NCBI GenBank assembly: GCA_016125285.1
Contig: WGMA01000037.1
Span: 1 to 64,000, forward strand
Direction: 5' to 3'
Length of the DNA: 64,000 nt
Source of the DNA: Phycisphaera sp.
Lineage (GTDB): Bacteria > Planctomycetota > Phycisphaerae > Phycisphaerales > Zrk34
The notes beneath the pieces are model-generated. The model ran no database searches. It had not been told where the DNA came from and saw only the letters and a program-made list of their open reading frames with translations. This document shows positions 39,430-43,018 of the stretch, piece after piece. Both the position numbers and the translations under genes were made by a program. The stretch's first letter is position 1. Every line of letters starts with the position of its first letter.

Positions 39430-39455
39430 GAAAGGGTGGCTGAGGGGATTCGAAC
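39430..39455 (+). repeat. left attachment site (attL) of the tRNA-His element
   Basis: The 26 bases starting GAAAGGGTGGCTGAGG are identical to 42939-42964, which contain the 3' end of tRNA-His. Here the tRNA body is absent, so this copy is the short duplicated end produced by integration. Identity stops sharply on both sides. Confidence 0.92.
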
Positions 39456-39642
39456 TCCGCAGCCCCCTGACGCAACAGGGGATGATACCAATGAGTTACC
39501 CGAAGAGGCAACCGAAGAGGGAGCGAAATCGGGCGCTGTTAGTAATCCGGAACTCCTGTACTTGATCTCAGTGTGGCCTACACTACCCGAAGAAGTCAGG
39601 CGAACAATCCTACGAATAGCAAGGTGGAGCGGGGATACATGA
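39430..39642 (+). pseudogene. stranded C-terminal tail of the integrase, in frame across attL
   Basis: Reading from the repeat, the frame ERVAEGIRT continues as PQPPDATGDDTNELPEE, then a polar linker and a compact helical tail (NPELLYLISVWPTLPEEV, then RRTILRIARW), with a TGA at 39640-39642. The repeat is read in the same frame in the integrase gene at the other end. On excision the integrase would therefore acquire these 62 residues. The tail resembles C-termini I remember from planctomycete recombinases (W-x-LP-x-x-(V/I)+ helix). It has no start codon of its own that looks used. The stop overlaps the next gene by ATGA. Confidence 0.7.
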
Positions 39643-40025
39643 AGCCACTCTTGATGGGAACGTGCATCGGTGCTCTGTTTGTAGTCGCTTGCCTTGGGAG
39701 CTATTGGTTTGGGCTTTCGGAAGGTAAGCAAGACAAGCAACTACAAATTGAGCAACAAGGGGAAGTGCGGTGTAAGTCTGGTAAGGGGTGTGGTTGCATG
39801 ATGCACACTTCGGATGGTCGGCCCTGGCGGACCTTCGAAGGTGGGTGTGAGTTTCATCCTGATGTGTTATGCCGATGTCGGTCGCAACAGGACATCTTGA
39901 ATCCCACAGACTCATCACTTCGACCGACCGACCCTAAGTTGATTCGTGAAGCATGGGAGCGAGGGGTTGAAGATGGATATAGGCACGCTGAAAGCAAGCT
40001 AGGTTCACCGAAGCCTCAGCAATAG
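39639..40025 (+). CDS. small Cys-rich membrane-anchored protein of the element
   Basis: The 128-residue protein has an N-terminal membrane segment (about residues 5-26, LLMGTCIGALFVVACLGSYW). The VVAC inside it could also act as a lipobox. The outer part carries seven cysteines in CKSGKGCGCMM, GGCEF and LCRC, perhaps a small metal-binding or disulfide domain. No family is recognised. The ATG at 39639 overlaps the stop of the integrase tail (ATGA), so it would be translationally coupled to the integrase in the excised circle but separated from it in the chromosome. AGGTGGAGC precedes the start. Confidence 0.6.
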   Translation: MKPLLMGTCIGALFVVACLGSYWFGLSEGKQDKQLQIEQQGEVRCKSGKGCGCMMHTSDGRPWRTFEGGCEFHPDVLCRCRSQQDILNPTDSSLRPTDPKLIREAWERGVEDGYRHAESKLGSPKPQQ

Positions 40026-40124
40026 ACACTGGGATGTTTCGCCGAAAATTTGCGAGAGGGCATCTAATAGAATCGGATAGCGCGATTTCCCCCGTGGCCC
40101 GGGCGCATGGCCAGTTTCCGATGC

Positions 40125-40832
40125 TCACGCCGCTTCTCGTTCAATGATGTCCCGCACCACCTTCGCGTGCCACTTGCCGCCGTTCTTCGGGGCGACTCCG
40201 CGACGCTCAAGGTCCGCAATGATGACGCGATAACTCTGACCCCGATCACGTAGACCTATCATAGAGCGTATGGCGCGTTGCTCATTCGAGTTCGGCAGAA
40301 GCCGGACCCCATCGTCGGCAAGCTCATAGCCGAAGGGGATACGCCCGCTGATGCGCTCGGATCGGTTCCGCTTGTGTGCCAGCGCCGTAGTCGTCCGCTC
40401 TGAGACTAGATCGCGTTCGAAGTCAGCAAGTACCGCCATCAGCTTGAAGAACATGCGCCCCGCCGCTGTGGTGGTGTCGAGTTGTTCGGAGAGACTCACA
40501 AGGTCCGCCCCGGCGTTGTCCAAGCGTTCAGCTATGGCGATAGCGTCAGTGGTCGACCTGGCAAGGCGCGAGAGAGAGTAGACCACCACAGCGGCCTTGT
40601 GCTTGCACGCCTGAACTAACGCCGCGTTGAGACCTGGACGGTTGTCCGCACGCTTGCCGCTGATCTCGTCTCCGTGAACGTCCAACAACGTCAGTCCGTG
40701 GAGATCACAGTAGGCACGAACCTTGGCGCGCTGTGCGTCGAGACTGATACCGTCTTCGGCTTGGCCCGCAGTGGACACCCGAACGTATCCGACAGCGACC
40801 TTCGTCACTTGCTTCTTACGTCTCTTTGCCAC
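40125..40832 (-). CDS. serine recombinase (resolvase/invertase family)
   Basis: The 235-residue protein has the resolvase catalytic domain. The nucleophile is in GYVRVSTAGQAEDG, followed by DEISGKRADNRPGL, VYSLSRLARSTTDAIA and ADFERDLVSERT, with helix E leading to a C-terminal DNA-binding part (GRIPFGYELADDG, IIADLERRGV). It cuts DNA with a 5'-phosphoserine link and would resolve dimers or invert a segment. A GTG start at 40832 is chosen because AAGGAG (40845-40840) lies 7 bases before it and the next residues (AKRRKKQV) are the usual N-terminus; the open frame extends 108 codons further without homology. It is transcribed away from the integrase. Confidence 0.88.
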   Translation of the reverse strand: MAKRRKKQVTKVAVGYVRVSTAGQAEDGISLDAQRAKVRAYCDLHGLTLLDVHGDEISGKRADNRPGLNAALVQACKHKAAVVVYSLSRLARSTTDAIAIAERLDNAGADLVSLSEQLDTTTAAGRMFFKLMAVLADFERDLVSERTTTALAHKRNRSERISGRIPFGYELADDGVRLLPNSNEQRAIRSMIGLRDRGQSYRVIIADLERRGVAPKNGGKWHAKVVRDIIEREAA

Positions 40833-40850
40833 GATGATTCTCCTTGTGTT

Positions 40851-40876
40851 TGTTACCGACCGTCCGGTTAGTAACA
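40851..40876. promoter_or_regulatory. inverted repeat upstream of the serine recombinase, possible operator
   Basis: TGTTAC and GTAACA, 14 bases apart, flank the region 6-30 bases before the ribosome binding site of the recombinase gene. Recombinases of this class often bind near their own promoter, so autoregulation is possible. No protein-binding evidence exists. Confidence 0.3.
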
Positions 40877-41004
40877 AGAATAGCGCCCGTTGGGTGTCCG
40901 CGCCAGTATGAATCTGCGCGATTGCTATACGATTTTGACGCGCGGATTGGGCTGCCGATGTAAGCCTACGTGGTGGGGTGTATCGGTTGTTTTCGGCACA
41001 GTCT

Positions 41005-41034
41005 TTGGACCTTTTTAGGCAATTCGTGTATAAT
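41005..41034 (+). promoter_or_regulatory. promoter reading towards the integrase
   Basis: A perfect -10 box TATAAT (41029-41034) is preceded at 18 bases by TTGGAC (41005-41010). Transcription would start near 41041, leaving a leader of about 280 bases before the integrase start. The palindrome GAGCATGCTC at 41048-41057 sits at the expected start of the transcript. Confidence 0.55.
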
Positions 41035-41324
41035 GCCAATGGACCAAGAGCATGCTCCGTAGTAGACGCACCAGTGTGGGCGTAGATGCGTCGAACCGTA
41101 CCCGGTAACGGGTTTGCCCCAGCGCGGCACAACGTCGCCAAAAGACTGCTCAACAACCGAACACCCGCCCGTCACAATTTCCCATCACCCTTACGACATC
41201 ACATTTGGTTTCGGTGTGCTCGGCGCGCTGACTATGTGGTCACTGCACCGCCACGCTGTACTTGTGTCGCCTATAGCGCGACAGAGAGGTTTGTCATTGT
41301 GCAAACTCATTGGAGTGTAGTCGG

Positions 41325-42998
41325 TTGACTACGAGTCTTGATGCCCCGCAGGGGGCACTGACGGTTAAGGCCGAAGCCTTAATCACCCGACAGATGAAAC
41401 TGGAATACGAAATGTTAGATCACGGACGCAGACGATTTCAAAACAAGGTCAACAAGACCATCGACAGGGGCAGACGCCAAGACACACCAGGTGCGCGCCG
41501 CTTAATTAGTGAAGCAATCACGCCGCTTACAGCAGCCATTACAGAATGGCTCAAGCGAAGCTATGGCGGCAGACCAGGACGTGCGAACAAATTCGCCCCG
41601 CTGCTAAAGAACACCGCACCTACAACCGCCGCGTACATTACGGCCCGAAGAGTCTTCTCGGGAGTTGGTAAGAATGGTGAACCGCAAACCCGAGCCGACC
41701 TCGCGAAACGCATTAGCCAGGACATCGAACTGGAGCACCGCCTTCGTAGATTTGAGCACATGAACCCAGGGTTCTACCAGGCAATCACCACACGCACTAA
41801 ACAGCAGGGCTCCACGGAGTCGCATAAGCGCCGCGTACTCATTCACGAAATGAATCGCATAGGCATAGAGGATGACGGTTGGTCCAATCCCGACCAATTG
41901 GGCGTCGGGCTCGTCTTATCTGAACTGTTCATCGCATCAACCGAGATGGCGTATGAAGAGAAGCGGAAGCGTAAGGGGCAAAAGAGGCAACAGAGTTACA
42001 TACGCCTGAAGCCCGACACACTTCAATGGCTGGATGGCTATCACCAACACCGAGCCGACCTCAGCCCCGCAATGTGGCCAATGTTGGTAGAGCCATTGGA
42101 TTGGACACCGCAAGAGGATGGAGGCTACCTACTCCAGTTCATATGTCATCGCTCACTTGTTAAACACTGTTCAAAGAAGCATCGAGATATACTTAGCGAA
42201 GCAAACCTAGCTGTTGAGCGAGAGCTAATCCGCGAGTCACCACTGCGCCACTTGAAGGGCGGATCGACACCACACCGTAATCCACGATACATCACGCCCG
42301 AAGAGACAGACAGGCTACTGAACGCAGCATTGGATATTCGGTGGAAGACGGTAGTAGGTCTGGCTCGCCTTGCTGGTTTACGGTGTCCATCAGAGACGCA
42401 CCTGTTGACGTGGGCTGACGTGGACTTTGACAAGGGACGCCTACGGGTCCGCTCCCCAAAGACAGAGCATCACGCAGGCAAGGAAGAGCGAATAGTACCC
42501 ATCACGCCAAAGCTAATGAGCATCCTACAGGACGCCTTCCACGCGGCCCCTGATGGCTCTGAGCGCGTCGTCAGGATTGGGACCAAGGGCAACCTACGGC
42601 GCACCATGCTAGCCCTTGTGAAGCGTTCAGAGGTCCAGAAATGGGATGACTTGTGGCAGACTCTACGTCGCTCATGCGAACAAGAATGGGCGATGGAGTT
42701 CCCACAGTTTGCAGTATCAAATTGGATCGGCCACAGCCTTACGGTCAGTGGCAAGCACTACGCCAACCACGTACCCGATGAGTTGTTTGAGAGAGCCGCG
42801 AGCTTAGGACCGGATCACGACTCCGTAGATTCCAGCACCCCCTCGCAGGACGCTGAAAACGAAGATTTTAACGGAGCCGCGTTTTGTACCCAAGATGACG
42901 AAAACAGTGAAGAAAACGCTTGTTTTGTCGGGGAAAGTGAAAGGGTGGCTGAGGGGATTCGAACCCCCGACCCTCGCGACCACAACGCGATGCTCTAA
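41325..42998 (+). CDS. chimeric integrase: T7/SP6-type RNA-polymerase N-terminal domain fused to a tyrosine recombinase
   Basis: The 557-residue product has two parts. Residues about 20-300 resemble the N-terminal domain of single-subunit phage RNA polymerases: LEYEM then GRRRF, RRLISEAITPL, GRPGRANKFAPLL followed by AAYIT, LFIASTEM, a basic hairpin-like EEKRKRKGQKRQQ, LSPAMWP, DGGY and LVKHCSKK follow in the order known from T7 and SP6. No polymerase palm or fingers follow. Instead residues about 305-490 are a tyrosine-recombinase catalytic domain with Arg353 (LAGLRCPSE), Lys379 (SPKTEHH), Arg448 (QTLRR), His470 (WIGHS) and nucleophile Tyr479 (GKHY). The usual core-binding domain is missing. 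TTG 41325 is preceded by GGAG at 9 bases; TTG 41310 and ATG 41394 are alternatives. From residue 539 the protein is read through the att repeat and antisense to tRNA-His. Confidence 0.85.
   Translation: MTTSLDAPQGALTVKAEALITRQMKLEYEMLDHGRRRFQNKVNKTIDRGRRQDTPGARRLISEAITPLTAAITEWLKRSYGGRPGRANKFAPLLKNTAPTTAAYITARRVFSGVGKNGEPQTRADLAKRISQDIELEHRLRRFEHMNPGFYQAITTRTKQQGSTESHKRRVLIHEMNRIGIEDDGWSNPDQLGVGLVLSELFIASTEMAYEEKRKRKGQKRQQSYIRLKPDTLQWLDGYHQHRADLSPAMWPMLVEPLDWTPQEDGGYLLQFICHRSLVKHCSKKHRDILSEANLAVERELIRESPLRHLKGGSTPHRNPRYITPEETDRLLNAALDIRWKTVVGLARLAGLRCPSETHLLTWADVDFDKGRLRVRSPKTEHHAGKEERIVPITPKLMSILQDAFHAAPDGSERVVRIGTKGNLRRTMLALVKRSEVQKWDDLWQTLRRSCEQEWAMEFPQFAVSNWIGHSLTVSGKHYANHVPDELFERAASLGPDHDSVDSSTPSQDAENEDFNGAAFCTQDDENSEENACFVGESERVAEGIRTPDPRDHNAML
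42939..42964 (+). repeat. right attachment site (attR) overlapping tRNA-His and the integrase
   Basis: This 26-bp copy of the direct repeat contains the acceptor end and T-arm start of tRNA-His (minus strand) and codons 539-547 of the integrase (plus strand). It is in the same codon phase as the attL copy (both begin on the first base of a codon). Confidence 0.92.
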
Positions 42999-43018
42999 CC
43001 AACTGAGCTACAGCCACC
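42944..43018 (-). tRNA. tRNA-His (GTG)
   Basis: The cloverleaf is complete. The acceptor stem pairs GTGGCTG with CAGCCAC, with the extra G at -1 opposite C73 that marks histidine tRNAs. The D-arm is GCTC/GAGC, the anticodon stem TCGCG/CGCGA has loop TTGTGGT (anticodon GTG), and the T-arm is GGGGG/CCCCT around TTCGAAT. CCA is not encoded. It is the integration site of the 39430-42964 element, which rebuilt the 3' end through the att repeat, so the tRNA stays functional. Confidence 0.97.

Follow-up and report, generated by a model that had tools for sequence, protein, structure and literature searches.

Tyrosine recombinases ubiquitously contain a core-binding (CB) region and a catalytic (CAT) region (PMC8138268). 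Temperate T7-like phages with an integrase near the RNA polymerase (RNAP) gene have also been described (PMC10134795). At the locus analyzed here, parts of both systems occur in one reading frame, in which the N-terminal domain (NTD) of a T7-type single-subunit RNAP is joined to the catalytic domain of a planctomycete tyrosine integrase. The locus lies within the window, the 64,000-nt stretch of DNA that was analyzed, at the start of contig WGMA01000037.1 of a Phycisphaera sp. genome (GCA_016125285.1). The identification of the two domains was confirmed as correct and unusual, and it exceeds chance by far. None of the collections searched contained a second example of this architecture, and at face value it would be a striking new recombinase. 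The evidence presented below suggests that the fusion is probably a scar that an in-frame deletion left in what remains of a prophage.

The fusion ORF is uninterrupted on the plus strand from its first TTG, at 41310, to 42998. The TTG at 41325, which is preceded by a GGAG at 41312 to 41315, is a likelier start than the TTG at 41310, and the frame codes for 557 amino acids. A preliminary description of this DNA had reported a single unbroken plus-strand frame from 41325 to 42998, and the open frame bears this out. Residues are numbered here from 41310, which corresponds to the numbering of the preliminary description (from 41325) plus 5.

The 5' part of the gene (41325 to 42206, plus strand) encodes the NTD of a T7-type RNAP, about 295 residues long, in agreement with the earlier assignment of residues ∼20 to 300 to a T7/SP6-type polymerase. 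The Pfam profile RPOL_N (PF14700) matched residues 27 to 276 (E = 1.3e-17), PHROG 414 ("RNA polymerase") covered residues 22 to 298 (E = 2.3e-51) with positions 2 to 279 of its 816, and T7 RNAP from PDB aligned to residues 22 to 290 (E of ∼1e-12). An AlphaFold model was built from an input alignment of 38 IMG/VR polymerase N termini, and pLDDT values were mostly above 90 across residues 30 to 250; the catalytic half of the model, for which the input alignment held NTD rows only, was of low confidence. In the structural comparison (AlphaFold with VIA-align), model residues 18 to 306 superposed on T7 RNAP residues 26 to 316 with a Z score of 22.3 and an rmsd of 3.1 Å over 280 residues at 23% identity, and rows from outside the T7-type polymerase family scored Z values below 7. 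The likeness to the T7 RNAP NTD is thus one of both sequence and predicted fold over T7 residues 26 to 316, with the loop and hairpin regions included. All 16 strongly conserved RPOL_N columns are intact in the fusion, and the nearest RNAP NTDs are only ∼30% identical to it. The Pfam, PHROG, PDB, and structure matches ruled out the possibility that an ordinary integrase N terminus had been misread as RPOL_N.

The remainder of the polymerase was not found. The PHROG 414 match ends at position 279 of 816 and integrase follows, with no palm or fingers, catalytic aspartates, or specificity loop in the frame. The polymerase part of the fusion thus differs from T7 RNAP in having lost the thumb, palm, fingers, and specificity loop, together with the polymerase active site. 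In T7 RNAP, the specificity loop (approximately residues 739 to 770) supplies main base-specific promoter contacts too. Because this loop is absent here, the NTD alone is not expected to be able to find promoters.

In the 3' part of the gene (42207 to 42998, plus strand), a planctomycete tyrosine integrase is represented by its catalytic domain and C-terminal tail. The Pfam profile Phage_integrase covered residues 327 to 425 (E = 3e-8), and the catalytic residues R358, K384, R453, H475, and Y484 were all present; these are the same residues that the preliminary description had named as Arg353, Lys379, Arg448, His470, and Tyr479. All 23 columns with at least 95% conservation among 78 relatives were kept, and the fusion, like its integrase subfamily, has Q as the first residue of the HxxR box. 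The closest relatives, planctomycete integrases, belong to a tRNA/tmRNA subfamily (L106, L107, L112, etc.) of the arm-binding tyrosine recombinases (PMC8138268); they share with the fusion a catalytic domain that is 57 to 66% identical, the catalytic residues, and a C terminus that enters the tRNA att site. Members of this subfamily use both tRNA-His and tmRNA sites, and many relatives are located at tmRNA genes (L045 to L047, L051, L052, L106, and L114).

Upstream of the catalytic domain, the fusion departs from these relatives. Where intact planctomycete integrases (L106, L107, and L112) have ∼165 amino acids of arm- and core-binding sequence, the fusion has ∼295 amino acids of RNAP. The arm-binding domain (the MASIT...LGK... 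region of intact relatives) is missing, and only the last helix of the core-binding domain is left. Phage_int_SAM gave no match in the fusion protein at E values up to 10, unlike the relatives, which carry PF13102; the earlier proposal that the RNAP part occupies the place of the core-binding domain was thus upheld. Very short tyrosine recombinases, such as FimB and FimE, are known, and activity of the fusion is therefore possible. Judged from its domain content, site-specific recombination by the fusion protein is doubtful, because tyrosine recombinases generally have both core-binding and catalytic domains (PMC8138268).

The junction, EANL|AVEREL, lies between residues 300 and 301, at approximately nt 42209|42210 (within 42198 to 42215, plus strand), and was placed by alignments to intact integrases and RNAPs. 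RNAP homology extends to LVKHCSKKHRDILSEANL, ending in EANL, and integrase homology begins with AVERELIRESP, the stretch that closes the last core-binding helix in intact relatives. The join falls within this helix, is sharp, and has no linker, and a single helix of the model (residues 289 to 309) crosses it. The polymerase domain is cut near its natural end but not exactly there.

The fusion gene is part of a 3.5-kb element, from 39430 to 42964, that is flanked by a 26-nt exact direct repeat of the 3' end of tRNA-His. The left att copy (GAAAGGGTGGCTGAGGGGATTCGAAC) is at 39430 to 39455 and is identical to the right copy at 42939 to 42964, which falls in the 3' end of both the tRNA-His and the integrase frame. 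The tRNA-His itself (anticodon GTG; 42943 to 43017, minus strand; called by ARAGORN) is the host integration site, and the 3' end of the fusion gene falls within it; neither this overlap nor the repeat was included in the preliminary description. Inward from the left att copy is a degenerate tRNA-like sequence (39456 to 39505, minus strand) that ARAGORN does not call as a tRNA; it may be what is left of a tRNA-like att site once carried by the element. In addition to the fusion gene, the element contains a small ORF and a serine recombinase gene on the minus strand. The small ORF (39573 to 40025, plus strand; likelier start, ATG at 39639) has a low G+C content (0.52), no Pfam match, and PHROG matches at chance level only. 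The serine recombinase (Resolvase domain; 40125 to 40835, minus strand) is divergent from the fusion gene and matched PF00239 (E = 6e-36) and PHROG 95 (E = 3e-56); its ORF is open to 41156, with a likely start at GTG ∼40835.

The host genome (G000) is a draft of 90 contigs totaling 6.1 Mb and is 97% complete; its relatives place it in Planctomycetota. The element lies within one 154-kb contig with ordinary host genes on either side, and the same tRNA-His adjoins the same FHA-GAF kinase gene in three related genomes (G003, G004, and G006); in G003 and G006, another integrase gene likewise ends in tRNA-His. Given the att repeat, the tRNA-His, and a kinase neighborhood that is kept in related genomes, the region from 39430 to 42964 is an element that integrated at a tRNA gene of the host. 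G+C content is 0.64 for the window and ∼0.52 to 0.62 for the element. Third-position G+C is 0.575 in the RNAP half of the fusion and 0.584 in the integrase half, compared with 0.86 to 0.91 in the host genes measured. Searches of the 97%-complete host genome detected neither a T7-like portal gene nor a T7-like terminase gene, and the same queries detected both in control prophage genomes. With att-bounded integration at a tRNA 3' end present and portal and terminase genes not found, the element is at most a remnant of a T7-like prophage.

Complete att-bounded T7-like temperate prophages were observed in Planctomycetota, in tRNA-Thr (G051:C97:512-40107) and in tRNA-Glu (G582:C47:40819-88465), and the analysis thus also documents such prophages in this phylum. 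Both are from the same order as the host. The first is 39.5 kb long, with a 49-bp att repeat at 512 and 40059, an RNAP gene at 11.3 to 13.8 kb, and an integrase gene at 38.75 to 39.9 kb, both on the plus strand. The second is 47.6 kb long, with a 25-bp att repeat at 40819 and 88441; its RNAP and integrase genes are on the same strand, 32 kb apart, with the integrase at the tRNA end. In both prophages, RNAP is located toward one end and the integrase at the other, on the same strand and 25 to 32 kb apart. Their integrases belong to another subfamily and are only 32 to 34% identical to that of the fusion. Of 45 T7-like contigs from IMG/VR in which more than 1.2 kb precedes RNAP, 26 have an integrase directly upstream of RNAP on the same strand; if att is located between the two genes, this matches the prophage order on a circular genome. 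The locus shares with temperate T7-like prophages (Autographiviridae; LUZ100, Pasto, G051:C97, and G582:C47) an att site at a tRNA 3' end, and with the latter two a T7-type RNAP and a tyrosine integrase on one strand, which in these prophages lie near opposite ends of the integrated form. It differs from them in being only ∼3.5 kb long, in having RNAP and integrase each truncated and joined, and in containing no structural or packaging genes.

Searches of 94 loci with related integrases, ∼50,700 phage records, and the sampled planctomycete genomes detected no further RPOL_N-integrase fusion. The 94 loci, obtained with an alignment of the integrase catalytic domain from GTDB genome contigs and IMG/VR, showed neither an RNAP in the flanking sequence stored for them nor another RPOL_N fusion; most of their integrases are intact, with ∼165 to 180 residues ahead of the catalytic domain. 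Five long integrases (L151, L170, L117, L101, and L098) were considered as fusions and rejected, as they are intact integrases with early start codons. In tblastn searches of phage and plasmid sequences, none of the 1,792 phage records with a match covered 80% of the query, nor did any plasmid record, and exact-peptide searches with the fusion protein found nothing. Searches with PF14700 or PHROG 414 also covered 397 genomes from the class, 400 from the order, and 392 from the phylum (overlapping sets), and the other matches there were long polymerase frames of 790 to 1,096 amino acids, with the exception of a 505-amino-acid frame that runs off its contig. No conserved fusion family was found across the integrase loci, the phage and plasmid records, and the class, order, and phylum genomes, and a single genome carries the fusion.

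Other integrases of this family are damaged or joined to unrelated genes. Truncation of the 5' end is common, with at least five relatives having a 5'-cut integrase gene away from a contig edge (L126, L127, L146, L138, and L160), and the host genome also has an integrase reduced to its C-terminal part at tRNA-Val (L021:8710-9060, G000:C54). A DUF3987 helicase/primase-type protein is joined in frame to an integrase in a related genome (G003:C153:12198-14645, minus strand; L020/L105), in a frame that ends in tRNA-His and is open at the contig end. At a tmRNA gene, a primase zinc-ribbon-like segment (a weak match; E = 9e-4) is joined in frame to another integrase (G130:C5; L052/L114) at the start of its core-binding domain. 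Like the fusion, these two loci have a 5'-truncated integrase in frame with a replication-type gene that precedes it; they differ from the fusion in keeping the core-binding domain (PF13102) and in having partners other than RNAP. The primase of G051 was considered as the DUF3987 partner of G003 and rejected, since it is not the same gene. In-frame joins thus account for 3 of ∼9 to 11 5'-damaged copies (small numbers, with an approximate count of damaged copies), close to the one third expected under a random frame.

The deletion scar reading draws these observations together. The ancestor, integrated at the tRNA-His 3' end, would have been either a temperate T7-like prophage of the Autographiviridae type or some smaller element with a T7-like RNAP, with the RNAP gene near its left end and the integrase gene at its right end on the same strand. 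A single internal deletion, from approximately codon 295 of the polymerase gene to approximately codon 165 of the integrase gene, would then have removed most of the element, with the frame kept by chance and the att copies retained. This reading is favored because RNAP and integrase share a strand in the two T7-like prophages and lie toward opposite ends, so that one deletion yields the observed frame; because the join is sharp, without linker, inside a helix, and between two truncated proteins; because the 5'-cut and in-frame-joined relatives indicate that the process recurs; because the two halves share a third-position G+C unlike that of the host; and because neither a T7-like portal or terminase in the host nor a second copy of the fusion was found. 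We infer that the deletion took place, that it was recent, and that its product is at most a nonspecific or inactive recombinase. Counting against a deletion scar, the genomes searched yielded no intact parent prophage that combines this RNAP with this integrase subfamily (the closest RNAP NTDs are only ∼30% identical, and the integrases of the two complete prophages only 32 to 34%), and an open frame with conserved positions kept (16/16 and 23/23) is also what selection for a working fusion would produce. The intact conserved positions in both halves fit a recent deletion as well as a working protein. If the deletion scar is correct, the locus shows how such a chimera originates: in a prophage whose integrase gene and an early gene share a strand but lie at opposite ends, a large deletion that keeps the frame, as one in three would, creates a long ORF of unrelated domains. 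It thus calls for caution in inferring function from singleton domain fusions at att sites.

The preliminary description had instead proposed that the promoter-binding module could guide recombination to AT-rich or melted DNA or tie it to transcription. In such a swap, the RNAP NTD would replace the arm- and core-binding domains and provide a new hold on DNA. The open frame, the complete set of catalytic residues, plausible start signals, and an NTD that is well folded in the model with its strongly conserved positions intact are all consistent with this proposal, and a protein lacking CB would need a stand-in, given that CB and CAT are ubiquitous (PMC8138268). The swap is nevertheless unlikely: the architecture is a singleton, the specificity loop of T7 RNAP is missing, the join falls within a helix without a linker and near but not at the natural end of the polymerase domain, both proteins are truncated, and other 5'-cut or fused copies of this integrase family indicate that such joins arise repeatedly. 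Moreover, the arrangement is what one internal deletion in a T7-like prophage leaves. That the protein is a working recombinase, with the RNAP NTD as a DNA clamp in place of the core-binding domain and aimed at AT-rich or opened DNA, is distinctly improbable. Selection might alternatively act on the truncated polymerase domain, which would counter infecting T7-like phages as a dominant-negative or exclusion factor, with the integrase tail as a passenger. From what is known of T7 RNAP, the NTD should bind DNA upstream of promoters, every strongly conserved NTD position is kept, and T7-like prophages are present in the same order. Since the class, order, and phylum searches yielded no stand-alone or repeatedly truncated RPOL_N genes (one frame is cut by a contig end) and this NTD is alone without its specificity loop, we regard an exclusion factor as highly improbable.

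The remaining explanations concern how the two halves came together. The RNAP part could derive from a small mobile element in which RNAP and a serine recombinase are divergent, as on contig G000:C23, and could have been joined to the integrase by recombination between two elements instead of by deletion inside one prophage. The presence in the same genome of a full-length T7-like RNAP (827 amino acids) near a divergent serine recombinase and the lack of a detected T7-like portal or terminase are in line with such an origin, but identity to the C23 polymerase is only 25% across the NTD, both halves of the fusion share one composition, and C23 ends in a repeat common to many contig ends, so that the element there is incomplete; a two-element origin is therefore very unlikely. 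Within the deletion scar reading, a smaller RNAP-bearing element may still be the source of the RNAP part, because a full-length RNAP adjoins a serine recombinase on C23. The draft state of the genome and the single copy of the fusion could also suggest that two phage genes were misjoined during assembly. Such an artifact is extremely improbable, as a single contig contains the element with its two matching 26-nt att copies and, to its left and right, ordinary host genes, and the composition is unchanged across the join.

The polymerase gene on C23 (G000:C23:257-2740; L019) adjoins a gene for an orphan 309-amino-acid protein as well as the serine recombinase gene. Approximately 140 bp at the end of this contig recur at about a dozen other contig ends and perhaps represent an IS.
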